Shown: piece by piece, positions 10,382 to 41,346 of the stretch
How the letters are laid out: every line of letters begins with the position of its first letter
Numbering within the stretch: position 1 is the stretch's first letter
Origin: Deltaproteobacteria bacterium
GTDB taxonomy: Bacteria > Myxococcota > SpSt-1050
Direction: 5' to 3'
Length of the DNA stretch: 41,346 bases
Assembly (NCBI GenBank): GCA_026416535.1
Contig: JAOAFA010000079.1
Span: 1-41,346 of the forward strand
Made by a program: the position numbers and the translations under genes
The notes under the pieces: generated by a model
Databases searched by the model: none
What the model was told of the DNA's origin: nothing
Seen by the model: the letters and a program-made list of their open reading frames with translations, nothing else

Positions 10382-10717
10382 ATGAGACTGAGACAAGGTA
10401 TTAATCAGATATATGAAACAAGGGCAAGAATATTAAAAGCTATAGCCCATCCTACGCGCCTCTTCATCCTGGACAAACTCAAAAACAAAGAATACTGCGT
10501 ATGTGAGCTCACCAAACTAGTCGGTGCTGATGTCTCAACAGTTTCAAAGCATCTCTCAATAATGAAAAACGCGGGGATATTAACAACACGCAAAGAAAAG
10601 AATATTGTTTACTATGACATAACCTGCGATTGTGTAACTAGGTACATTGAATGCATAGATGAGGTAATAAGAAATACCGCCGTTAATCACCGAAAGTTGT
10701 TAAAAACAATAAAATAA
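10382..10717 (+). CDS. arsR: ArsR-family arsenic-responsive repressor
   Basis: 111 residues, winged helix. Residues 15-35 match the family's A-I-A-H-P-T-R-L-x-I-L-D-x-L, and the metalloid site Cys39-Val-Cys41-Glu-Leu corresponds to the C-V-C-D/E-L of ArsR, next to the recognition helix (S-T-V-S-K-H-L-S, 52-59). Further Cys82, Cys84 and Cys91 near the C-terminus could supply a third ligand, as in variant As(III) sites. It should repress its own operon through the palindrome at 10346-10367 and release on arsenite. It is first of five rightward genes; the thioredoxin gene starts 15 nt later. Called arsR from the motif and neighbours. Confidence 0.9.
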   Translation: MRLRQGINQIYETRARILKAIAHPTRLFILDKLKNKEYCVCELTKLVGADVSTVSKHLSIMKNAGILTTRKEKNIVYYDITCDCVTRYIECIDEVIRNTAVNHRKLLKTIK

Positions 10718-10732
10718 AAGGAGGTGTAAACA

Positions 10733-10984
10733 ATGAAGATTCAGATTTTAGGAAGTGGTTGTGCAAAATGTAAGAGACTGGAAGAACTGGTTCGTCAGGC
10801 AGCAGATAATCTTGGTCTTACTTATGAAATAGAAAAAATCGATAAAGTACCAGATATATTGAAGATGGGTGTGATGATAACTCCAGGACTTGCAATTGAT
10901 AACAAAGTAATACTATCAGGGCGACTTCCTTCACTCTCTGAGCTTACATCAATAATAACCTCTTATCTTGCAAAAAATAGCTAG
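10733..10984 (+). CDS. Small thioredoxin-like protein (redox-active disulfide protein 2 type)
   Basis: 83 residues, a minimal thioredoxin fold. The active site is G-C10-A-K-C13, preceded by the I-Q-I-L-G strand, with the cis-Pro segment M-I-T-P-G-L-A-I (about 54-61). This matches the glutaredoxin-sized family TIGR00412, which is often encoded beside COG0701 permeases and arsenic genes. It may reduce the arsenate reductase encoded two genes downstream, or hand metalloid to the transporter; both are inference. A strong AGGAGG ribosome site precedes it. Its stop abuts the acr3 start. Confidence 0.85.
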   Translation: MKIQILGSGCAKCKRLEELVRQAADNLGLTYEIEKIDKVPDILKMGVMITPGLAIDNKVILSGRLPSLSELTSIITSYLAKNS

Positions 10985-12079
10985 ATGATGAACAAAACTG
11001 ACATAACTACATCAAACAACATAAGTAGTAAACTATCCATTCTTGATAGATATCTGACTCTCTGGATATTTCTTGCGATTATCACGGGGGTATCCATAGG
11101 TTATCTCTTTCCTTCAACCGCTGTATTATTAGATAAGATGAGTATAGGGACTACAAATATTCCAATAGCCATTGGTCTTATTCTGATGATGTACCCCCCT
11201 CTTTCAAGAGTAAAGTATGAGCAATTACCTAAGATTTTCAGAAATATTAGACTACTCCTCTTATCCCTCCTTATGAATTGGATAATTGGTCCACTTGTAA
11301 TGTTTCTCTTAGCTATACTTCTACTGCCAGACCAAACAGGATATATGACAGGTGTAATCCTTGTTGGACTCGCAAGATGCATAGCCATGGTACTCGTGTG
11401 GAACCATCTCGCCGATGGAGATCCCGAATACGCAGCAGGGCTTGTAGCACTTAATGCCATATTCCAGGTCCTTTTTTATTCAATATATGCCTACGTCTTT
11501 CTCTCTCTTCTTCTACCAATATTTGGATACCGTGGCACCCTTGTAAATATCACCATAGCTGAGATCGCAAAGACTGTATTTATCTACTTAGGAATTCCAT
11601 TCGTCGCTGGCATAGTTACTCGTTATTACTTAATAAGGATTAAAGGTACAGATTGGTATCACAATATTTTTATTCCTAAAATATCTTACATCACTCTCAT
11701 ATCCCTCCTCTTTACAATTGTTATAATGTTCTCATTTAAGGGTGAGTATATAATAAGGATTCCGATCGATGTGATCAGAGTTGCCATACCATTGACCCTT
11801 TACTTTATTGTTATGTTTCTTATAACATTCTATCTCGCAAAAAAAATTATGGCACCCTATCCCCAAACAGCTACAGTTTCACTAACAGCTGCAAGTAACG
11901 ACTTTGAATTAGCAATAGCTGTGGCAATTGCTATATTTGGTATTGCATCAAAGGAGGCATTTGCAACAGTAATAGGTCCTCTCATAGAAGTTCCTGTATT
12001 GCTTGGACTTGTAAAAACCTCCCTATATTTTAAGCAAACATTATTTGACAATAACAATTTAACTGTGGAGGAAAAGTAA
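10985..12079 (+). CDS. acr3: ACR3-family arsenite efflux permease
   Basis: 364 residues with about ten membrane helices. The diagnostic ACR3 segment G-L-A-R-C-I-A-M-V-L-V-W-N (about 120-132) carries the conserved Cys needed for As(III) transport, and a second conserved stretch (T-A-A-S-N-D-F-E-L-A-I-A-V-A, about 299-312) is also present. It exports arsenite using the proton-motive force. ATG follows the thioredoxin stop directly (TAG-ATG), so translation is probably coupled. A second ATG 3 nt later is an alternative start. ACR3 is not homologous to the ArsB antiporter family, so the symbol acr3 is preferred. Confidence 0.93.
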   Translation: MMNKTDITTSNNISSKLSILDRYLTLWIFLAIITGVSIGYLFPSTAVLLDKMSIGTTNIPIAIGLILMMYPPLSRVKYEQLPKIFRNIRLLLLSLLMNWIIGPLVMFLLAILLLPDQTGYMTGVILVGLARCIAMVLVWNHLADGDPEYAAGLVALNAIFQVLFYSIYAYVFLSLLLPIFGYRGTLVNITIAEIAKTVFIYLGIPFVAGIVTRYYLIRIKGTDWYHNIFIPKISYITLISLLFTIVIMFSFKGEYIIRIPIDVIRVAIPLTLYFIVMFLITFYLAKKIMAPYPQTATVSLTAASNDFELAIAVAIAIFGIASKEAFATVIGPLIEVPVLLGLVKTSLYFKQTLFDNNNLTVEEK

Positions 12080-12080
12080 G

Positions 12081-12782
12081 ATGAGAATTGAAATATTATA
12101 TTCCCCAGGATGCCTAGGCCTCGAGGAGACAAAAAGTCTTATTAAAGAGACAATGCTATCCTTGGGGATCAATGGTGAGCTGTTATGTATTAATACCGAT
12201 ATTGATAAAAGGTCTTATTACAAAGGTTCTCCTACCATACTAGTAGACGGAGAAGACATAGACCCACTATCCCCAGAGAAACCAAATAAGGACGGCTGTA
12301 GGATATACGAAAATGGGAATCCCTATCCTCCAAGGTATATGATTGAAGCTGCAATACTGAGAGCTCTCAAACCAAAAAAAATACTATTTATGTGTGTTCA
12401 TAATTCAGTTCGTTCAATTCTTGCAGAAGGGATCGCTAGGCATCTCGCCCCCGCAGATGTGGAAATCCTATCTGCAGGGTCAAATCCAGGCGGTGTCAAA
12501 AATGATGCCTTAAAGGTCTTATCAGAAATTGGAATAAGTACAGTTGGGCTCTATTCAAAATCTGTTTACGATATTGATACAAAAGGAGTTGACTGCGTAA
12601 TCACTTTATGTGAGGAGGAGGCATGCCCATTATTTTTAGGTTCGGCCATCAAACTTCACTGGGGACTCAAAGACCCGTCCACAGAACCTGATCTGTCAAA
12701 GAGGCTCAATGCCTTTAGAAAAACGAGAGATGAACTTTATAAAAGGATATCACTTCTCTTTAGGGAGAAGACAATTGAATGA
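12081..12782 (+). CDS. arsC: Thioredoxin-like domain fused to LMW-phosphatase-type arsenate reductase
   Basis: 233 residues, about 100 more than a stand-alone ArsC. Residues 1-95 form a thioredoxin-like domain (E-I-L-Y-S-P-G-C, cis-Pro segment G-S-P-T-I-L-V-D-G, then a D-G-C-R-I-Y motif) of the kind found alone in mercury and arsenic clusters; only one Cys remains at the usual CxxC site (C11). Residues 99-233 are ArsC: catalytic P-loop C105-V-H-N-S-V-R-S, resolving Cys177 and Cys182 in L-C-E-E-E-A-C, and the acid Asp198 in K-D-P-S. It reduces arsenate to arsenite for ACR3. The fusion may supply a built-in partner or reductant. Its stop overlaps the permease start by 8 nt. Confidence 0.88.
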   Translation: MRIEILYSPGCLGLEETKSLIKETMLSLGINGELLCINTDIDKRSYYKGSPTILVDGEDIDPLSPEKPNKDGCRIYENGNPYPPRYMIEAAILRALKPKKILFMCVHNSVRSILAEGIARHLAPADVEILSAGSNPGGVKNDALKVLSEIGISTVGLYSKSVYDIDTKGVDCVITLCEEEACPLFLGSAIKLHWGLKDPSTEPDLSKRLNAFRKTRDELYKRISLLFREKTIE

Positions 12783-13935
12783 TAAAAAATTATTACTGAT
12801 ATTCTTGGTAATCTTCTTATCATTCTGGTTTTTACCTATCGATAACTTAAGTTTTAGGAACGCCCTGATTGAGGCATTAGCACTAACAAAGTGGTATGCA
12901 AGGGAGCATGTAATATTTTGCCTAGTCCCTGCATTTTTTATCGCGGGGGCTATATCAGTGTTCATCTCCCAGGATTCCCTAATGAGATATTTAGGCATAA
13001 AGGCAAACAAAATAGTTGCCTACAGTGTAGCCTCCATCTCAGGCTCAGTACTCGCGGTATGCTCGTGTACAGTACTTCCCATCTTTGCTGGTATATACAA
13101 AAGAGGGGCTGGACTAGGTCCTGCTATTACATTTTTGTATTCTGGTCCAGCAATCAATATACTTGCAATAATCCTAACCGCCCGTGTCTTAGGAATCGAG
13201 ATAGGCGTCGCAAGAGCAATAGGGTCAATCCTATTTTCAGTCTTAATCGGAATTATAATGGCGATTCTCTTTAAATCGAATGACCGAGAGAGGATATCAG
13301 ACACATCAGAGTTACCTTATGAACCTCCGAAGAAAAAATCTTTAGTAAATGCTATTTACTTTACACTACTTGTCGGATTACTCATATTTTTAAATTGGGG
13401 AGAAGCTGAGAATAACAACTTTTTCAATTTTGTTCACTCGATAAAGTGGTATCTCAGTGGATTGGTATTTATATTTCTATGCATAACTACTTTTAAGTGG
13501 TTTACCAAAGATGAACTTATATTATGGGCTGACTCATCATGGCAATACATAAAAATGATGTTTCCTTTGTTATTTGTGGGTGTATTTGCTGCAGGCTTTC
13601 TTTTTGGAAGACCAGGAAATGAGGGGATTATACCTTCGGAATTTGTAAGGTCCCTTGTAGGAGGAAACTCTCTAACCTCTAATCTATTTGCCTCAGTTAT
13701 AGGAACAATCATGTACTTTGCTACGCTAACAGAGGTACCTATAGTTCAAGGGCTCCTCGGTTCTGGGATGGGGAAAGGACCTGCACTTGCGCTCCTCTTG
13801 TCAGGCCCAGCACTCTCGCTACCTAACATAATAGTCATCAGCAATATCCTGGGGACAAAGAAGACAATGGTATATGTCTTACTTGTAATTATATTCTCTA
13901 CGATTATAGGCCTAATTTTTGGTAAACTGTTTTAG
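12775..13935 (+). CDS. COG0701/PF03773 permease of the arsenic operon (ArsP-like)
   Basis: 386 residues from TTG 12775, eight to ten membrane helices. Two internally related halves carry A-V-C-S-C-T-V-L-P-I-F-A-G-I-Y-K-R-G-A-G-L-G-P-A in pieces, and later E-V-P-I-V-Q-G-L-L-G-S-G-M-G-K-G-P-A, with matching S-G-P-A segments; this is the hallmark of the ArsP/SO_0444 permeases that export metalloids or organoarsenicals. TTG is chosen because GGGAGAAG lies just upstream and the first helix follows at once, overlapping the arsC stop. Earlier in-frame ATGs at 12709 and 12730 lie deep inside arsC. It converges on fmt with a 12-nt gap and no evident terminator. Confidence 0.85.
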   Translation: MNDKKLLLIFLVIFLSFWFLPIDNLSFRNALIEALALTKWYAREHVIFCLVPAFFIAGAISVFISQDSLMRYLGIKANKIVAYSVASISGSVLAVCSCTVLPIFAGIYKRGAGLGPAITFLYSGPAINILAIILTARVLGIEIGVARAIGSILFSVLIGIIMAILFKSNDRERISDTSELPYEPPKKKSLVNAIYFTLLVGLLIFLNWGEAENNNFFNFVHSIKWYLSGLVFIFLCITTFKWFTKDELILWADSSWQYIKMMFPLLFVGVFAAGFLFGRPGNEGIIPSEFVRSLVGGNSLTSNLFASVIGTIMYFATLTEVPIVQGLLGSGMGKGPALALLLSGPALSLPNIIVISNILGTKKTMVYVLLVIIFSTIIGLIFGKLF

Positions 13936-17797: not shown

Positions 17798-20167
17798 CTA
17801 ATTCTCATTAAAGTATCTATATAAGACAAAATCGGTGATCCTCTTTTCTTTCACAATATAGTTCAATACTCTATCCAAAATAGACTCTTGATCCAACATC
17901 ACTTCACTCAACCCCCCTTTTTTGCTATATTCAACAAATTCAATCCCTACATCATACGGTATATTAGCAAGAGATCTGATTTTTTGCTCAGCCAAAACAT
18001 AACCGCCTACGCCATCAACTAAACCGAGTAATTTTGCCTCTGCCCCTGTAAAAACTCTGCCTTCAGAAAGCTCAGAGACCTTACTAATATCAATATCCCT
18101 TGATAATGAAACCTTACTCCTAAAAAACTCGTAAAACTCATCAATAAAATTCTTTATTCCCTTAATCTCACTATCACTCAGCCCTCTAAAAATACTATCT
18201 GAGTCTCCACTCTGCTTTACAACATACGGTTCGTAATTAACACCCAGCTTTTTTAACAATCCTGAAATATCGGGCTTCAAGAAAAATACACCGATTGAAC
18301 CCACTATGGACAATTCATCTGCTATTATATAATCAGATGCAATAGCAGAAAAGTATCCTCCCGATGCTGCCATAGAACCAACTGAGACCACAAGAGGCTT
18401 TACTGAAGATAACCTCCTTATATCCTCATATATCAATTGACTTGCTAATGTCGAACCACCTGGAGAATTTATTCTCACAATGACACCTACAATTGACTCA
18501 TCTTTCATAATTTCACCCACTATATCTGAGATGTCAACATTGCCAATTGACTCAAGACCAACAGTATCACCAAATCCCTTGCCATACACAATATCTCCAT
18601 TCAGATAAATAACCGCAATCCTTCTCTTTATGTGCCATCCACCCCTAAAGATCCCAGTTTCTGTATAATTCTCATTTACTGGATATGGTTTACCAAAATA
18701 ATACTTAGTATCACTTAAAATCCTCTCAAACACCGACACATCATCAACTAACCTTTCTTCCTTTGCCCTGCGAGGTGAGAATAATGCATTGGAATAAATT
18801 TGTTCAAGCTTTTTATCTTCTATGCCTCTCGATTTAATTATTGCATCATCCAAAATCTTTTGAATCGAGCTTAACAACCTTTGTGTCTGTTCCTTTCTCT
18901 TATTGCTCGCCTTTTCTAATACAAGAGGTTCAAATGCCGTCTTATATTCCCCTGCTGCAACCACATCAAATCTCAATCCTATTTTCTCAAAAAGATTCCT
19001 AAAATACAACCCTATAGAGGCAGCCCCTTTTAAATAAATAGAGCCTCCTTCATTTAGGATTATCTTATCAGCTATATTGGCAATATAATAGGTCTTATCA
19101 TCACCTGACTCTAAAAATGCCACTACCGTCTTCCCCCTACTCTTAAATTCAGATAGGGCTCTCCTTATATCACCAGCCGCCCCCAACGAAATGTCGATAT
19201 CAGATACATAAAGAATCAAACCCGAGACCACACTGTCATTTGCAGCCGACCTAATAATATTTATAATGTCCAAGACAGATCTACTCTTTTTCCTAAGTCC
19301 AAACATGTCCTCTCTGACTCCATCAATAACAGTATTATCCAACCTTATCAAAATCACCTCTTGAGACAAAGCAAAAAGTTCTTCATAACTATTTTTGGAA
19401 TATCTAAATGCAATCCCTTTGCCATCAAAATCCCTATCTTTGTCCGAGTAGCTACCCAAAAAAGAGAATCCAAATTTTGCAAGATCAAGATTTATACCTC
19501 CATACATATCTTTCTCTTCATTAATACCATAATACAATCTCAACCCTTTCACTGGATTTATAGCCACAAAGTATCTATTGGGGATGTCCTTATTATGCTC
19601 AATAAAACTAAAATCGCCATACAGCTCGAATAAATCGGAAAATGGTTTTATCCCTAACCCCAGATTTAATCTTCTCGGCAATTTTATATCTCCAACTGAG
19701 GGCTGACCCAAATTCTGTCCCACTACCGATATATTAAGGAATCGTGCAGGCATAAAATATGTGCCTGCATACCAATCGAAGGATAAGTCATATTTAGGTT
19801 CAATTGGATCAAAGATAGAAAACCCAACCCCCATAACCATATAATCCCCTACCCTAAAACCAAATGGGACAGAATATTTTAAAAAGTCCACAAAATTACT
19901 GTCGATGTAGTTTATCCCCAATCCAAAATTCTTGATCTCAACTACAGAACCATAAAATTTAGATTCATTGGAGAATGATTCTTGATAAAAGAATGTAAAC
20001 TGATTGTCCTGAAGATAACCAAATATAGCTGGGTTATCAAGAGCACTTAGCGAGTTGTATACCGACGCATAAGGATTAAATTTATTATAATAAAGAAACT
20101 CATCCCTGTCAGCATAGATTTCACGACAAAATATACTAATAATAAGTAAAAAAACTTTCTTTTTCAT
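17798..20167 (-). CDS. sppA: SppA-type S49 signal peptide peptidase with N-terminal beta-rich (outer-membrane-like) domain
   Basis: 789 residues against about 618 for E. coli SppA. A signal peptide (1-19, cut near Y-A/D) leads into about 240 residues (20-258) of alternating, Gly- and aromatic-rich strands (G-L-G-I-N-Y, L-N-L-G-L-G-I-K-P) that look like a beta-barrel or PorV-like module. The two S49 domains follow: Lys409 in A-G-E-Y-K-T-A-F-E-P is the general base and Ser602 in S-M-A-A-S-G-G-Y-F the nucleophile, as in the 67K class. There is no N-terminal membrane anchor of the normal type. GAGGAG about 8 nt upstream supports the start. An AT hairpin at 20202-20258 separates it from glcD. It probably digests leftover signal peptides, here perhaps in the periplasm or at the outer membrane. 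Confidence 0.9.
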   Translation of the reverse strand: MKKKVFLLIISIFCREIYADRDEFLYYNKFNPYASVYNSLSALDNPAIFGYLQDNQFTFFYQESFSNESKFYGSVVEIKNFGLGINYIDSNFVDFLKYSVPFGFRVGDYMVMGVGFSIFDPIEPKYDLSFDWYAGTYFMPARFLNISVVGQNLGQPSVGDIKLPRRLNLGLGIKPFSDLFELYGDFSFIEHNKDIPNRYFVAINPVKGLRLYYGINEEKDMYGGINLDLAKFGFSFLGSYSDKDRDFDGKGIAFRYSKNSYEELFALSQEVILIRLDNTVIDGVREDMFGLRKKSRSVLDIINIIRSAANDSVVSGLILYVSDIDISLGAAGDIRRALSEFKSRGKTVVAFLESGDDKTYYIANIADKIILNEGGSIYLKGAASIGLYFRNLFEKIGLRFDVVAAGEYKTAFEPLVLEKASNKRKEQTQRLLSSIQKILDDAIIKSRGIEDKKLEQIYSNALFSPRRAKEERLVDDVSVFERILSDTKYYFGKPYPVNENYTETGIFRGGWHIKRRIAVIYLNGDIVYGKGFGDTVGLESIGNVDISDIVGEIMKDESIVGVIVRINSPGGSTLASQLIYEDIRRLSSVKPLVVSVGSMAASGGYFSAIASDYIIADELSIVGSIGVFFLKPDISGLLKKLGVNYEPYVVKQSGDSDSIFRGLSDSEIKGIKNFIDEFYEFFRSKVSLSRDIDISKVSELSEGRVFTGAEAKLLGLVDGVGGYVLAEQKIRSLANIPYDVGIEFVEYSKKGGLSEVMLDQESILDRVLNYIVKEKRITDFVLYRYFNEN

Positions 20168-20201
20168 GATCCGAAACTCCTCAATAATTCATCCACCTAT
20201 C

Positions 20202-31446: not shown

Positions 31447-33342
31447 ATGAAAAGACACTTATTTTTTTTAGTATCTGTACTTACCATATACATTGCTTGT
31501 TCGGATGAGAGTTCAGATGATTTCATTTCAGATTCAATTTCCAAAGACACATCTTTGGACATAGATCCTGTAGATAAAGAGGAGATGAAAGACATAGATG
31601 ATATCTCGTTTGCAGATCTAAGTCTAAGAGATGCGACAGAGATTACTGACACAACAATCTCTGACTCTGGAGGTGATGGAGACAACAATGATATAATAGT
31701 CATTCAAGATGTATCCACTGAGTTAGGTATAGGTGATATCATTATTACAGATATTCTGGATATACACTATCAAGACACAGGAACGGATAATATCATGTAT
31801 GATATAGACATAGATGCAGACGCCATGGGCGAAGATATTACAGACTCCGGGGATACGGTATCACTACCACCTATCGTCAACGAGCTCATGATAATGCCAA
31901 ACTACGGTGATACCAAACTCGGCCAATATATTGAGATCTACAATCCAAACAGATTTGACCTTGACATTAATGGATATAAGCTCAAGACCGAAAAAGATGA
32001 ATTCATTATATCTAATAAAGAATGTGACACAATAATCAAAGCTTATTCATTTATTGTTATTGGGGCAACAAAAGATCCTCTTAAAAACTCTTATGCAAAG
32101 GTCAGGTGTGAATGGAAAGACCTATTCACCCTCACAGATGCAAGACAGTTAGAGCTTCTAGGGCCAAATAATCTCTTAATTGAAAAGATCGATCTTACGA
32201 AACTTCCTACTAAAAAAGGTGCATCACTCGAAAGGAAAGGAGACAAGTTCGAACCCTCACCATCACTTATAACGTTTTTAAACGAAACAGGCCTTTACAA
32301 TGGAGACAGGGGTTCACCTTTTAAAACAAACTATAATCTAGTAATTAAAAGCAAACTATATGAATCAGAACCTCAAGAGGATAGATTTGAAAAAGAAAAT
32401 ACAGTTTACAGATATCCTGCCGATTTAGCAAAAGGTGATATAATAGCATTTCATGCAGATGTGGATAGAATAAGTGGTGATTTAAAACTATTTGCATCAT
32501 TACTCGATTCTGACGATAGATTTATAACACCTGATATCTACATATCAGACATTAGTTATGACTTTTTCATTTACCATCTTATCAAAGATACGAAAAGATA
32601 TTATTTCCAAATCCAACCTGACTTCTTCTACAAATTCAATCCGGCAAATATTGAGGCAACATACTACAGAGCCAATAGTATTAAGACCACAAAAGACCTA
32701 ATAGAGCTGCAAGTTGGAGACAAATATCAAATCACAACATACGCAACTTTTAGCCAAAATCCAAATCTGAAAGACTTCCTAATTGACAAGACTCTCCTGT
32801 CATATTCATCTAATGACCCCTATATAGCTGAGATATCAACAGATGGTGTAATCACAGGAAAGAACATTGGAACAGTCACCGTATATATCAATTATTACTA
32901 CACTGATGGAACAAGCCTAAATACAACGATGGTAGTTAATGTATATAACCAACCGCCGAATGAAACCTGTGCAACCGCTTTAGATGCTACAAACGGACTT
33001 TCAACATATAGCTCAACAATAGGCACACAAGACGACTATAACCCTAAAGAATGCATATTCTCCATGTTCTCTGGTGGTGACATTGTCTACTATGTTGACG
33101 CGGAACCTAATGCAATATACGAGGTGATCGTTACACCCTATGCAAGCTTTGACCCCATGATTTATGTCTACGACGATTGTAGCAAAAATGAATGCCTTTA
33201 TGGAACAGTCCTCAACGGTGCAGGTGCCCCAGAAAAACTAACATTCAAGAACGAGACATTCTCCAAAAAGCGATTTTATATTATAATTGATGGAGAGGCT
33301 GGGGATGAGGGCTCATTTCAACTTACTATAACTAAAAAATGA
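31447..33342 (+). CDS. Asp-rich multidomain lipoprotein: LTD, BIG2-like and C-terminal PPC-like domains
   Basis: 631 residues. Lipoprotein signal peptide with I-Y-I-A-C18. Residues 19-138 are an acidic stalk made largely of Asp, Ser, Ile and Thr. A lamin-tail domain (about 141-290) has the typical N-E-L-M-I-M-P and Y-I-E-I-Y-N-P-N segments. A BIG2-like fold (about 420-500) shows S-S-N-D-P-Y-I-A-E-I-S-T-D-G-V-I-T-G. The C-terminus (about 503-630) resembles the bacterial pre-peptidase C-terminal domain (E-T-C-A-T-A, F-D-P-M-I-Y-V-Y-D-D-C). No enzyme domain is seen; a cell-surface adhesive or structural role is inference. GGAGGA precedes the ATG. It converges on yjbQ with a 7-nt gap. Confidence 0.85.
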   Translation: MKRHLFFLVSVLTIYIACSDESSDDFISDSISKDTSLDIDPVDKEEMKDIDDISFADLSLRDATEITDTTISDSGGDGDNNDIIVIQDVSTELGIGDIIITDILDIHYQDTGTDNIMYDIDIDADAMGEDITDSGDTVSLPPIVNELMIMPNYGDTKLGQYIEIYNPNRFDLDINGYKLKTEKDEFIISNKECDTIIKAYSFIVIGATKDPLKNSYAKVRCEWKDLFTLTDARQLELLGPNNLLIEKIDLTKLPTKKGASLERKGDKFEPSPSLITFLNETGLYNGDRGSPFKTNYNLVIKSKLYESEPQEDRFEKENTVYRYPADLAKGDIIAFHADVDRISGDLKLFASLLDSDDRFITPDIYISDISYDFFIYHLIKDTKRYYFQIQPDFFYKFNPANIEATYYRANSIKTTKDLIELQVGDKYQITTYATFSQNPNLKDFLIDKTLLSYSSNDPYIAEISTDGVITGKNIGTVTVYINYYYTDGTSLNTTMVVNVYNQPPNETCATALDATNGLSTYSSTIGTQDDYNPKECIFSMFSGGDIVYYVDAEPNAIYEVIVTPYASFDPMIYVYDDCSKNECLYGTVLNGAGAPEKLTFKNETFSKKRFYIIIDGEAGDEGSFQLTITKK

Positions 33343-37293: not shown

Positions 37294-37596
37294 ATGAGTG
37301 ATAACAACAACCAGATTGAAAATAAGCCACAGGAAAGAAAGATTGAGTTCAAAGACTTCATAGCCTCTCTTTACATGAGTGCTGTAGTATCTTTAGGACT
37401 AATTCCTGATCCTATTACAAATGAAAAGAGGAAGAATATCAGCTTTGCCCAGGAGACCATTGAGATACTAAGAATCTTAAAAGAGAAAACGCGAGGAAAC
37501 CTTACAGAAGAAGAGTCAAAATTCTTAGACGACTGCACATATAAACTTATGTTACAGTTTGTTGATGCGATCAAGGAAGGAGATAAAAAAGCTTGA
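37294..37596 (+). CDS. DUF1844 protein
   Basis: 100 residues, soluble and helical. F-K-D-F-I-A-S-L-Y-M-S-A-V-V-S-L-G, then P-D-P-x-T, F-A-Q-E-T-I-E-I-L, L-K-E-K-T-R-G-N-L-T-E-E-E, and a final L-D-D-C-T-Y-K-L-M-L-Q-F-V: the whole length matches DUF1844, found in Myxococcota, Desulfobacterota and other phyla. Function unknown. Its stop overlaps the TTG start of the next gene by 4 nt (TTGA), so the pair is coupled. It has the strongest ribosome site in this region. Confidence 0.9.
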   Translation: MSDNNNQIENKPQERKIEFKDFIASLYMSAVVSLGLIPDPITNEKRKNISFAQETIEILRILKEKTRGNLTEEESKFLDDCTYKLMLQFVDAIKEGDKKA

Positions 37597-38636
37597 GTAA
37601 TATTTGGCTTATACTGATTTTGCCAATATACACAGATTTTTCTGCCAAAGAACGACTCAACATCTCCACTGAATATGACTCGAATGTCTACAAAAGGCCA
37701 TTAAAGGACAACGAACTACTAAAATCCGACTTCAATCTAAGGCTTCAATCTGATCTCAATCTAAGGTTTTCGTCAAACAAACATATCCTCAAACTCAATA
37801 TCATTAATGGCGGTAAGTTATTTATTAATGAATCAGATGCAAATGCAATAGCAAATCAGGGTGAAATATCATATTCTTACAAAGCTGGTAAATTCATACC
37901 TGAAATAGGACTAGATGCAAAAGACACTTCTACAATTGACACTATACAAGATTATACAATAATTATGCCATTCGTTGCATTAAATTATTATTCTAAATCA
38001 TTATATCTCAAACTACTTCAAGGATATGAAAGATTCATCTTAGATTATAAGGAGGACTACTCTTACGATGGCCTAGTATCAGGAATCATAACGAATCTCT
38101 CAATTGATGAGGACTTAAGTTTTAATGCAAACTATATATTCAAGTACAACTACTACGACTCGCCCGCGTACAAAAAATTGGGGGATTTAGATAAAGACAT
38201 ATTATTGACTCAAAAGACGACAAACAAAAGGCGAGACTCAAATCACAATCTACTTTTAAGATTAAATTATGAATCAGATATAATTATATTCTTCTCCTAT
38301 AATCCGGAAATTAATACCTCCAATTCAGCCGGTGAATCTGTATTTAGGCAAAGATTTCAACTCTCTATGACTTCACTCCTATTTTTTAAGATATACATTA
38401 ACATGTTAATCTCAATCATGATATCCTCATTTAAGGATGGGATATTAATATCTGATGAGCTATTACTAATTAATGATAGCGAAAATAGAAATTACATAAT
38501 CATTAAGCTATCACGTGAGATTTACAAGAAGACAATGATAGAATTCAAATACTCCTACTATTATTCTGAGTTTTCAAACTATATAACACAATTTAATCGC
38601 ACTGTAATATCTTTAGGATTCTGTTTTAAATTTTAA
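37593..38636 (+). CDS. Outer-membrane beta-barrel-type protein
   Basis: 347 residues from TTG 37593. The leader (residues 2-18) is hydrophobic and could be cleaved after D-F-S-A. The rest is a series of alternating polar/apolar strands with many Tyr and Phe, including the E-Y-D-S-N-V opening common in beta-barrel porin-type families, and the chain ends in an aromatic residue (C-F-K-F), the usual BAM recognition end. No specific family recognised. TTG is chosen because it gives the signal peptide and overlaps the DUF1844 stop; GGAG lies about 12 nt upstream. It converges on the next gene with no gap: the stop codons are adjacent (38636/38637). Confidence 0.7.
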   Translation: MSNIWLILILPIYTDFSAKERLNISTEYDSNVYKRPLKDNELLKSDFNLRLQSDLNLRFSSNKHILKLNIINGGKLFINESDANAIANQGEISYSYKAGKFIPEIGLDAKDTSTIDTIQDYTIIMPFVALNYYSKSLYLKLLQGYERFILDYKEDYSYDGLVSGIITNLSIDEDLSFNANYIFKYNYYDSPAYKKLGDLDKDILLTQKTTNKRRDSNHNLLLRLNYESDIIIFFSYNPEINTSNSAGESVFRQRFQLSMTSLLFFKIYINMLISIMISSFKDGILISDELLLINDSENRNYIIIKLSREIYKKTMIEFKYSYYYSEFSNYITQFNRTVISLGFCFKF

Positions 38637-40187
38637 TCACCTCTGATCTTGATTACAAAGGACCCTCTTCATATTAAGAAAGTATTTCATTTTTGTATTT
38701 ATATCAGTATAAAACACATAATAATCTTTGCCAATTAAAGACATATATGGTTTCTCAATGAGAGATACAGGAGAGATTATCAATTCCGAGATCTTCTTGC
38801 CACTTACATCCATATCAGCAAACAATATATATCCCTTATTGTTTCTAACAGCCTGAAATGTGCTTCCAAATATATTGCCATTATAGATTATCACAGGTAA
38901 GCCAAATTCATCAAAAAGAAAATCAACCTTCTTCAATATAAGGCTATACATCTCACTATTGAGGACAGTTATATACATGGTCCCAACAGATGTCTTTGAC
39001 TCCGTCCATATCAAAACAAAATAACCACCCCCATAGCCAATAGCAGTGCCAATTACACTACTTGATGTCTCATAAATAGGGTATCTAACCTTCTTACCAT
39101 CTAAAAGACCATTCTCCATTATGACTACTTCTACCTTACCGTCTCTAATCTCACAATAAGACGTATATATCTTATCATTTTCTATAACCAAGTTATGCCC
39201 ATATGAATCAACATCTCTATTTGAGATAATTCTCATTGAGGTCATTTCTCTTTTCAATAAATCTATCTCTCCCAAAAACACCGCCCTTTTACCTTTCTCA
39301 ATTGTCTCAAAAGAAAGATAATTAGAAGCTTTATATTCCGTAAAAATTAGATTATCTATAAAATCATATCCTTTATAAAATTCAACTGGTTCGGTATAAA
39401 AAAGTCCGTTATAAGAGACACTTCTATATAGAATTTTTGATCCATCTTTACAATTTTCTGACCAATAAATATCAATCCTTTCTTCATACAGACTTACAGC
39501 AACACTACCGAAGCGACAATCAATAGGCAATTCTTTCACATCTGTTAAAAATATTACTTTTATAGTATCATCAACTAGAGAGACCCTCAAAATATGTCCC
39601 TTGTCTAATATTGACTCAATGAAAGCTACTGCCATATAGCCTTTATAAGTAGTTGAAATCAGATTTGAGACCTTACCAGTAAGATCAGTAGCAATGCTAT
39701 ACGCCTTATTTTCTACTTCATACCTACAGACATTATCTACAAACCCATCACAATCATCATCCCGGAGATTTGATGGTATCTCTTCATCCCCAAACTTCTG
39801 ACATCTATATTCACAACCATTCTCATATTTGCCATCTAAGTCTATATAACCACTTATGCAATACTCTATCTTACACTTAGCACTTATGCACTCGACGCTT
39901 GACACTCCTTCAGCAGTTCCACAAACATTTCCACACCTTCCACAGTTATTTAAATCAGTTGTTATATTCGCCTCACATCCATCATTTGAATCCTTATTGC
40001 AATCCGCAAAATTCTTATCACATCTTTTTATCGCCAAATTCCCATTTTCATCTTTACTAGCAAATCCATTATTCACTCTCACTACTTCAATCTCCTCTCC
40101 CTCTTCTACACTATCACCACAGTTACAACCGCTTACAAGCACAATCAAACTAACGAAGACCAAATGTATCAAATATCTCCATTTCAT
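38637..40187 (-). CDS. Lipoprotein with MopE-like Cys and Asp motifs
   Basis: 516 residues. Signal peptide ending V-S-G-C21, with a second Cys soon after. Residues 54-100 hold the repeat-like D-C-N-K-D-S-N-D-G-C-E and N-C-G-R-C-G-N-V-C, and about 139-150 hold D-D-D-C-D-G-F-V-D-N-x-C; these match motifs abundant in Myxococcota surface proteins and the putative metal-binding motif of MopE-type proteins. Residues about 165-510 form a beta-propeller-like region of short repeated strands, without an identifiable enzyme. A surface or extracellular binding role is inference. ATG 40187 lies within the amylase gene (38-nt overlap) with GGAGA 9 nt upstream. Confidence 0.8.
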   Translation of the reverse strand: MKWRYLIHLVFVSLIVLVSGCNCGDSVEEGEEIEVVRVNNGFASKDENGNLAIKRCDKNFADCNKDSNDGCEANITTDLNNCGRCGNVCGTAEGVSSVECISAKCKIEYCISGYIDLDGKYENGCEYRCQKFGDEEIPSNLRDDDCDGFVDNVCRYEVENKAYSIATDLTGKVSNLISTTYKGYMAVAFIESILDKGHILRVSLVDDTIKVIFLTDVKELPIDCRFGSVAVSLYEERIDIYWSENCKDGSKILYRSVSYNGLFYTEPVEFYKGYDFIDNLIFTEYKASNYLSFETIEKGKRAVFLGEIDLLKREMTSMRIISNRDVDSYGHNLVIENDKIYTSYCEIRDGKVEVVIMENGLLDGKKVRYPIYETSSSVIGTAIGYGGGYFVLIWTESKTSVGTMYITVLNSEMYSLILKKVDFLFDEFGLPVIIYNGNIFGSTFQAVRNNKGYILFADMDVSGKKISELIISPVSLIEKPYMSLIGKDYYVFYTDINTKMKYFLNMKRVLCNQDQR

Positions 40188-41325
40188 TATTCACATCTCC
40201 AGATATAATCACTTTTCTATTTTCCCCTGAGAACTCAACACCATCCCACCTCTCTAAAGCCCCGTAATCAATTAAATATTTATATTCTATCTGCGTATTG
40301 TTGCATATATATGTTTCATAATACGAACTCTCAGAATTTACCTTTGTCATTTTCATACGATTTGGGACCCAATTCCCGAGCTGGACAACATCCCCGGAAA
40401 TAAAAGCCGACTTACCAGCCGATATCTCAAATGACTTACTTGATGTATTGAGATTGAATCTCACCTTTACCGGCAAGACACTACTCTTCTCATTGATTCT
40501 ATATAATCTGACCTCGTATGGTTTTAACGGTCCAACAAATAAGTAATTATAATTTTCCTCGACTTCGATACTCGAATACGAAAAGAGCGAATCAAAGCTG
40601 AGAATCCCACAACTCTTATCTCTAAAAACCCCTATATTTAGGCTAACAGTATCAATATACATATCTTTCATATTAATAAGCCCAAGTATCTTACCTTCAT
40701 CTGCTCTCACAACAAATGAATAAACAAAATCCTCCTGTGAATTTTGGACATGAAAAAATTCAGAATTAGCAGAGATTTTTATCTCCCTTCTCAATTTATA
40801 CATCGATCTATAAAAATTATACAATGGGTTGTGCTCACTGAAATTTTGCCATGGCACATACCCCCTATATTCAGTTATACCCAACTCTTCACCATAAAAA
40901 ATTTGAGGTGAATTAGGAAAAACAAACATAAGTGTTGCAGCGGAGATCTGTTTAGAAATCCCTTTTTCATTATAACCACCATAATCATTTAGTGCCGTAC
41001 TCTTATGGGGGACATCATGATTTTGAATGAAAAATGAATGTGTAACGCCTTCAGAAAACTTTCTTCTTAAATCTGCCCTCAACCCATCGATAGCATTAGG
41101 TTTATTATTTCCATTCACAATTGAATTAACTGTCCAATAATAAGGGAAGGTAAACGCAACATCAAATTCACCATTGTAATAATCTTTTATCCCATAGCCC
41201 TGATTATTGTTATCAAAATCCCTGAAAACCTCAGCAATTAGGATCACATTAGGGTTAATAGACTTGACAAATCTTCTAAGATTCATCCAGACACTATGAG
41301 AGGGACCTGTCACATGGTCTATCCT
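40150..41325 (-). CDS. GH13 alpha-amylase-family glycosidase with C-terminal CBM20, 5' part missing
   Basis: About 391 real residues; the N-terminal half of the catalytic barrel lies off the contig. The visible part starts at R-I-D-H-V, the region II motif with the nucleophile Asp, then region III L-I-A-E-V (acid/base Glu), region IV Q-N-H-D-V-P, and Y-G-E-E-L-G. A beta-sandwich domain C is followed by a CBM20 starch-binding domain (about 300-396: G-D-V-V-Q-L-G-N-W and I-E-Y-K-Y-L-I). Subfamily and substrate (starch, glycogen or maltooligosaccharides) cannot be told. An apparent GTG start at 41340 and residues M-Y-K-R-Q come from adapter and are not real. Confidence 0.9.
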   Translation of the reverse strand, partial: RIDHVTGPSHSVWMNLRRFVKSINPNVILIAEVFRDFDNNNQGYGIKDYYNGEFDVAFTFPYYWTVNSIVNGNNKPNAIDGLRADLRRKFSEGVTHSFFIQNHDVPHKSTALNDYGGYNEKGISKQISAATLMFVFPNSPQIFYGEELGITEYRGYVPWQNFSEHNPLYNFYRSMYKLRREIKISANSEFFHVQNSQEDFVYSFVVRADEGKILGLINMKDMYIDTVSLNIGVFRDKSCGILSFDSLFSYSSIEVEENYNYLFVGPLKPYEVRLYRINEKSSVLPVKVRFNLNTSSKSFEISAGKSAFISGDVVQLGNWVPNRMKMTKVNSESSYYETYICNNTQIEYKYLIDYGALERWDGVEFSGENRKVIISGDVNNEMEIFDTFGLR

Positions 41326-41346
41326 CTGTCTCTTATACACATCTCC
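41326..41346. other. Tn5/Nextera adapter remnant at the contig end
   Basis: CTGTCTCTTATACACATCT (41326-41344) is the 19-bp Tn5 mosaic end used in Nextera libraries, and the following CC agrees with the read-2 adapter. It is a sequencing artefact. On the minus strand it creates a false M-Y-K-R-Q protein start. Confidence 0.97.

Follow-up and report, generated by a model that had tools for sequence, protein, structure and literature searches.

An SppA protease with a predicted N-terminal outer-membrane-type barrel in Myxococcota and other bacterial phyla

The gene and its protease core

The stretch of DNA analyzed here, referred to as the window, comprises 41,346 nucleotides of a contig from a Deltaproteobacteria bacterium placed in Myxococcota, and its minus strand carries an open frame for a protein of 789 amino acids, with the ATG at 20167 and the stop codon at 17798-17800 (Table 1). 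A preliminary description of the locus, which did not give the strand, had claimed an SppA protease of unusual architecture, and this architecture proved to be real, since the frame, the S49 core, the signal peptide, and the beta-rich residues 20-257 were all found. A frameshift or gene-merging artefact is excluded because the N-terminal region is conserved at phylum distance, the layout being identical in more than 180 genomes. Judging from the sequence, residues 1-19 resemble a Sec signal peptide, with KKK followed by a hydrophobic stretch and then IYA-D, and the signal peptides of relatives have textbook AxA-Q cleavage sites.

Table 1. Features of the barrel-SppA gene, with positions in the window
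Feature	Position	Strand	Basis
Whole gene: signal peptide, outer-membrane-type barrel, and tandem SppA (S49) protease, 789 aa	17798..20167	-	Open frame; S49 match, E 1.9e-54; barrel and SppA models
Ribosome-binding site GAGGAG, 9 nt upstream of ATG	20177..20182	-	Sequence
Predicted Sec signal peptide, residues 1-19 (MKKKVFLLIISIFCREIYA)	20111..20167	-	Sequence; low-confidence N-terminus in full model; AxA-Q sites in relatives
Hatch-like N-terminal segment, residues 20-53, with two short helices (39-44, 47-52)	20009..20110	-	Structure models
Asn45-Pro46-Ala47 motif	20027..20035	-	Conservation in alignments; FadL PDB entries
Predicted barrel, 14 transmembrane-type beta strands, residues 54-257	19397..20008	-	Models; Foldseek to OmpG/FadL/PorV; alternation; loop asymmetry
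Junction and linker, residues 258-293 (287-293 of low confidence)	19289..19396	-	Full-length model
N-terminal S49 repeat, about residues 294-505, supplies Lys	18653..19288	-	Pfam; PDB alignment; full-length model; Foldseek
Catalytic Lys409 codon	18941..18943	-	Invariant in aligned barrel-SppA; aligned with E. coli dyad Lys region
C-terminal S49 repeat, about residues 514-750, supplies Ser	17918..18628	-	Pfam S49 at 586-735; TIGR00706 above cut-off
Catalytic Ser602 codon (SMAASGGY)	18362..18364	-	Invariant; aligned with 3bez
C-terminal tail, residues 751-789, pLDDT 26-43	17801..17917	-	Full-length model

In textbooks, SppA is an inner-membrane protease that clears used signal peptides. Peptidase_S49 was the only Pfam model that matched the window protein, in two stretches, and scans of its relatives with the same models matched the protease part alone. 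The NCBIfam SppA match runs across residues 281-759, with nothing N-terminal of 281, and the best PDB sequence match is E. coli SppA (3bez; residues 292-736, E 6.6e-45). The full-length structure model likewise has E. coli SppA chains as its top Foldseek matches, with TM-scores of 0.83-0.86 on the target (0.85 for 3bf0). The protein exceeds the TIGR00706 domain model (208 against a cut-off of 155) and reaches 271 bits with the full-length model TIGR00705, below the cut-off of 311 because it has diverged; four of the five relatives tested do pass that cut-off. Lys409 and Ser602, described as intact in the preliminary description, are so in the alignment with 3bez and are invariant in both family alignments (30/30 and 22/22 rows). 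The core is therefore of the type seen in E. coli SppA, or protease IV (MEROPS S49, 67K type, 3bf0), with tandem S49 repeats of which the first provides the Lys and the second the Ser, whereas the single N-terminal inner-membrane helix of the E. coli enzyme (PMC9360617) contrasts with a signal peptide and a predicted 14-strand barrel in the window protein.

Several other features of the window were recorded. The region 10382-13935 looks like an arsenic cluster when its translations are read by eye, with an ArsR-type regulator, an ACR3-like transporter, a permease, and one frame that combines a small thioredoxin-like part with an ArsC-like phosphatase part. Two large proteins, probably lipoproteins or secreted, are encoded at 31447-33342 (+) and 38637-40187 (-), one with a lamin-tail domain and one without a Pfam match. 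At the contig end, an exact 19-base Nextera transposase adapter (CTGTCTCTTATACACATCT; 41326-41344) is an assembly remnant, from which the frame at 40150-41340 reads its GTG start and first residues, MYKRQ. In locus L023, on the contig of a relative, a minus-strand frame starts at the 3' end with EMCIRDR, apparently this adapter in another reading frame.

The N-terminal domain and its relatives

Residues 20-257 of the window protein have no Pfam match and no confident match in the Pfam, NCBIfam, and profile searches. Using 21 relatives from a genome scan, we made alignments of the whole protein (A5) and of residues 20-275 (A6), and structure models were built from 22 sequences without templates. 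The model of the domain alone has two short helices followed by 14 strands (mean pLDDT 90.2, pTM 0.84), and the full-length model repeats the 14 strands, followed by a short linker and the SppA core, the linker being weak and the relative placement of barrel and protease uncertain. Foldseek searches with the domain led to outer-membrane barrels, namely, OmpG (E 2.1e-6), FadL, TodX, TbuX, CymD, and PorV, with the highest query-normalised TM-score for PorV (0.64), followed by a FadL mutant (0.60). The N-terminal domain is thus confidently predicted to be a 14-strand outer-membrane-type barrel with a small NPA hatch. The structure models rule out a helix-bundle anchor. A viral source of the barrel was also considered and rejected, the best viral structure matches being generic barrels with TM-scores of at most 0.46.

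The sequence bears the marks of such a barrel. The two faces of the strands differ in hydrophobicity beyond within-strand shuffles, both in the window protein (p 0.001 by Kyte-Doolittle, 0.014 by Wimley-White) and in the family average (p 0.0002 on each scale); since the strands were located by the model, this alternation is a consistency test and not an independent discovery. Connections following odd strands have a mean length of 6.6 residues and those following even strands 2.8 (p 0.014), and short periplasmic turns with longer outer loops are the usual asymmetry of outer-membrane barrels. Alternation, turn asymmetry, an even strand number, and a Sec-like signal, all general features of outer-membrane barrels, are thus found together. 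Because 14 is an even number, both ends of the barrel should lie on the same side, and from this, together with the alternation and the lengths of turns and loops in the model, we infer that the protease is in the periplasm. The proposal that a signal peptide and about 240 residues of alternating strands replace the usual N-terminal anchor is therefore borne out by the sequence, the alternation test, and the barrel models.

The hatch motif is well conserved at all three positions, with Asn45 in 27/30, Pro46 in 26/30, and Ala47 in 25/30 rows, and in a wider set with 21/22, 20/22, and 20/22 rows, respectively. FadL has a named NPA motif, and PDB entries labeled "delta NPA" and "P34A" are among the Foldseek matches. 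The barrels of FadL/TodX and PorV share with the window domain the fold, the 14 strands, and the N-terminal Asn-Pro-Ala hatch, but they are far larger (about 420 residues in FadL, about 240 in the window domain) and have no fused protease; 14 strands are characteristic of FadL-family proteins (PMC12611786). Membership of Pfam families Toluene_X (PF03349), PorV (PF19572), and UPF0164 (PF03687) was dropped, as none of these models matched the window domain, one relative giving a weak match to PF03349 (E 0.02). PorV is the best PDB profile match, with an E value of 0.00027 that is due in part to the signal peptide and of 0.03 when relatives from other phyla are added. Of the barrel families named for comparison in the preliminary description, PorV is thus linked by structure and by a weak distant-profile match, whereas the Pfam models of PorV and UPF0164 remain unmatched. 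With type IX secretion in question, 19 genomes were searched with the PorV model and gave no match, in a search run without a positive control.

Closer relatives of the domain occur in Myxococcota as separate proteins. Searches with the domain profile also pick up protease-free frames about 300 residues long, with E values down to 1.4e-20, and these stand-alone barrels (L127-L131, L134, L135) have N-terminal signal peptides and an NPAG motif, resemble the Pfam Toluene_X and porin models weakly, and have no Pfam name. Comparison of the window domain family with the stand-alone barrels by hhalign gave a match of 99.2% (E 9e-20) over nearly the full length. They are homologous over almost the whole domain, have the same NPAG, and differ in having no protease, so that the fusion joins a known outer-membrane barrel type to SppA. 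OmpA consists of an N-terminal 8-strand barrel followed by a periplasmic, peptidoglycan-binding C-terminal domain; its likeness to the window protein is one of layout only, an even-stranded N-terminal barrel with a periplasmic C-terminal domain, and the sequences are unrelated. Two further frames deserve mention. In a TA06 MAG, a 314-aa frame directly upstream of barrel SppA (L039:177-1119, +) resembles the start of the barrel domain, as a separate barrel beside the fusion, and in the window, a 347-aa protein at 37593-38636 (+), with many alternating strands and no Pfam match, may be another outer-membrane barrel.

Distribution and the second SppA form

We counted a genome as positive when a match spanned the barrel and the first protease repeat, with the Myxococcota rows counted by eye. 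Barrel SppA is found in 137 of 156 Myxococcota genomes, in all 8 Eisenbacteria genomes, and, by hand count, in 42 of 60 genomes from a group that includes WOR-3, TA06, and related MAGs. Conservation of the architecture thus extends to at least three bacterial phyla, and the survey suggested in the preliminary description finds it widespread. The N-terminal part is thus a large, phylum-conserved domain without a name in the Pfam and NCBIfam models. The barrel form is absent from ten genomes picked for their barrel-less SppA (from Cyanobacteriota, Verrucomicrobiota, Bacteroidota, Chlorobiota, Planctomycetota, a gammaproteobacterium, and others), which are not an unbiased survey of their phyla. 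The fusion is old. In a tree built from the protease core, the forms group loosely. The best tree requires the label "barrel" to change five times, and the AU test does not reject a single barrel clade (p 0.46).

Many Myxococcota also encode an SppA of about 600 residues, and in most of the retrieved examples a single helix stands at the N-terminus (L115, MKRFFIGALACIGALSILFVIGIVGLLVLA, is one of them). Both the barrel and the helix-anchored form seem to be present in culturable Myxococcus species. The helix-anchored form was not found in the genome of the window, where the only other S49 gene (L001:1228-2112, +, contig C112) encodes a short SppA of 294 aa with a lipobox-like LLCGC, which suggests a lipoprotein anchor in place of the helix. 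Eisenbacteria and WOR-3-type genomes tend to hold a single barrel SppA together with a single short one. The earlier view that the enzyme had been moved away from the inner membrane thus fits the genome of the window, which is without a helix-anchored SppA; many other Myxococcota keep this form alongside the barrel form.

No partner genes of barrel SppA are conserved in its neighborhood beyond the genus. The order ATP synthase, M23 peptidase, FAD oxidase, sppA, priA, def, and fmt is common to the window and the nearest named contig (L034, DYEF01000065.1), which encodes a 70% identical protein and bears the public name "Bdellovibrio sp. isolate Tomsk_43_40". This name is probably wrong because the relatives of the window are Myxococcota. 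Two irregular copies were seen. In genome G233 (C10:46430-48674), the barrel and protease parts occupy different or broken frames and contain several stops, perhaps as a decaying or split copy, and in genome G070 (C30:3320-4939), the match of an extra copy begins at the protease only.

Anchoring and possible function at the outer membrane

With the fold, the catalytic dyad, and the conservation computed, we infer the location, membrane side, oligomeric state, and substrates of the protein: it is probably an SppA anchored in the outer membrane, with its tandem S49 core in the periplasm, that clears peptides and failed envelope proteins. Barrel SppA would be exported by Sec and lose its signal peptide, and its FadL/PorV-type barrel would be inserted into the outer membrane. 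The chain would then return to the periplasm, as the strand number is even, where the tandem S49 repeats would form the Ser-Lys site from Lys409 of the first repeat and Ser602 of the second. The tethered protease, perhaps tetrameric like E. coli SppA, would act at the inner face of the outer membrane on peptides that are short or unfolded; putative substrates are signal peptides released from the inner membrane, as well as pieces of outer-membrane proteins or lipoproteins that have failed. The substrate set may thus be a different one, as the preliminary description proposed.

SppA chemistry is consistent with such a move to another membrane, because known SppA, a tetramer held in the inner membrane by single-helix anchors, acts on signal peptides already freed from the membrane (PMC9360617). 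Its active sites are far from the membrane and its substrates are released peptides (PMC9360617). Such an enzyme could work just as well from the other side of the periplasm. In Flavobacterium columnare, loss of the ordinary sppA leads to more vesicles (PMC13236525); envelope upkeep can depend on ordinary SppA, which for the barrel form is an analogy and no demonstration. No S49 protein is named in the main-text tables of two papers on outer-membrane and vesicle proteomes of Myxococcus xanthus, which were checked by name with the locus tag unmapped, and we found no published description of an outer-membrane SppA in a search of mainly open-access literature.

The barrel could do more than anchor the enzyme. 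As a FadL-like conduit, it would let signal-peptide fragments or peptides from outside pass through or out of its wall, to or from the protease, much as the FadL family moves hydrophobic substrates via a lateral opening (PMC12611786). The fold, the 14 strands, and the FadL-like Asn-Pro-Ala motif speak for this reading, as does the retention of a hatch motif for which a mere anchor would have no need; however, FadL-family barrels also have roles other than transport, BamG being an example (PMC12611786), and the barrel is small beside that of FadL, so we regard a conduit as unlikely. Similarly unlikely is its fullest version, in which the fusion is a self-contained machine and the FadL-like barrel a gate that lets hydrophobic peptides cross or leave the outer membrane and reach the tethered Ser-Lys protease. 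If true, such a gate with its own protease would be a route of peptide disposal or uptake at the outer membrane that has not been described before.

Alternatively, barrel and protease might be cut apart after export, leaving the barrel on its own and the S49 domain as a soluble periplasmic protease. The linker is weakly predicted at 287-293 and SppA, itself a protease, could self-cleave, but across phyla the two domains stay in a single frame, and just 36 residues separate them in the window protein, which makes the split improbable. That the beta domain resides in the periplasm or at the surface and does not span a membrane at all, as its lack of recognition by Pfam might suggest, is highly improbable in view of the high-confidence 14-strand model, the matches to outer-membrane barrels, the alternation, and the loop asymmetry.

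Anchoring of the protease in the outer membrane, the reading that we prefer, bears on how SppA is understood. If a conserved outer-membrane SppA exists in Myxococcota, Eisenbacteria, and the WOR-3-type phyla, then either signal peptides can be cleared without the inner membrane, or S49 proteases do a separate job in the upkeep of the outer membrane. These two roles would be separable by gene removal, since some genomes are without a helix-anchored SppA while Myxococcus appears to have both forms.
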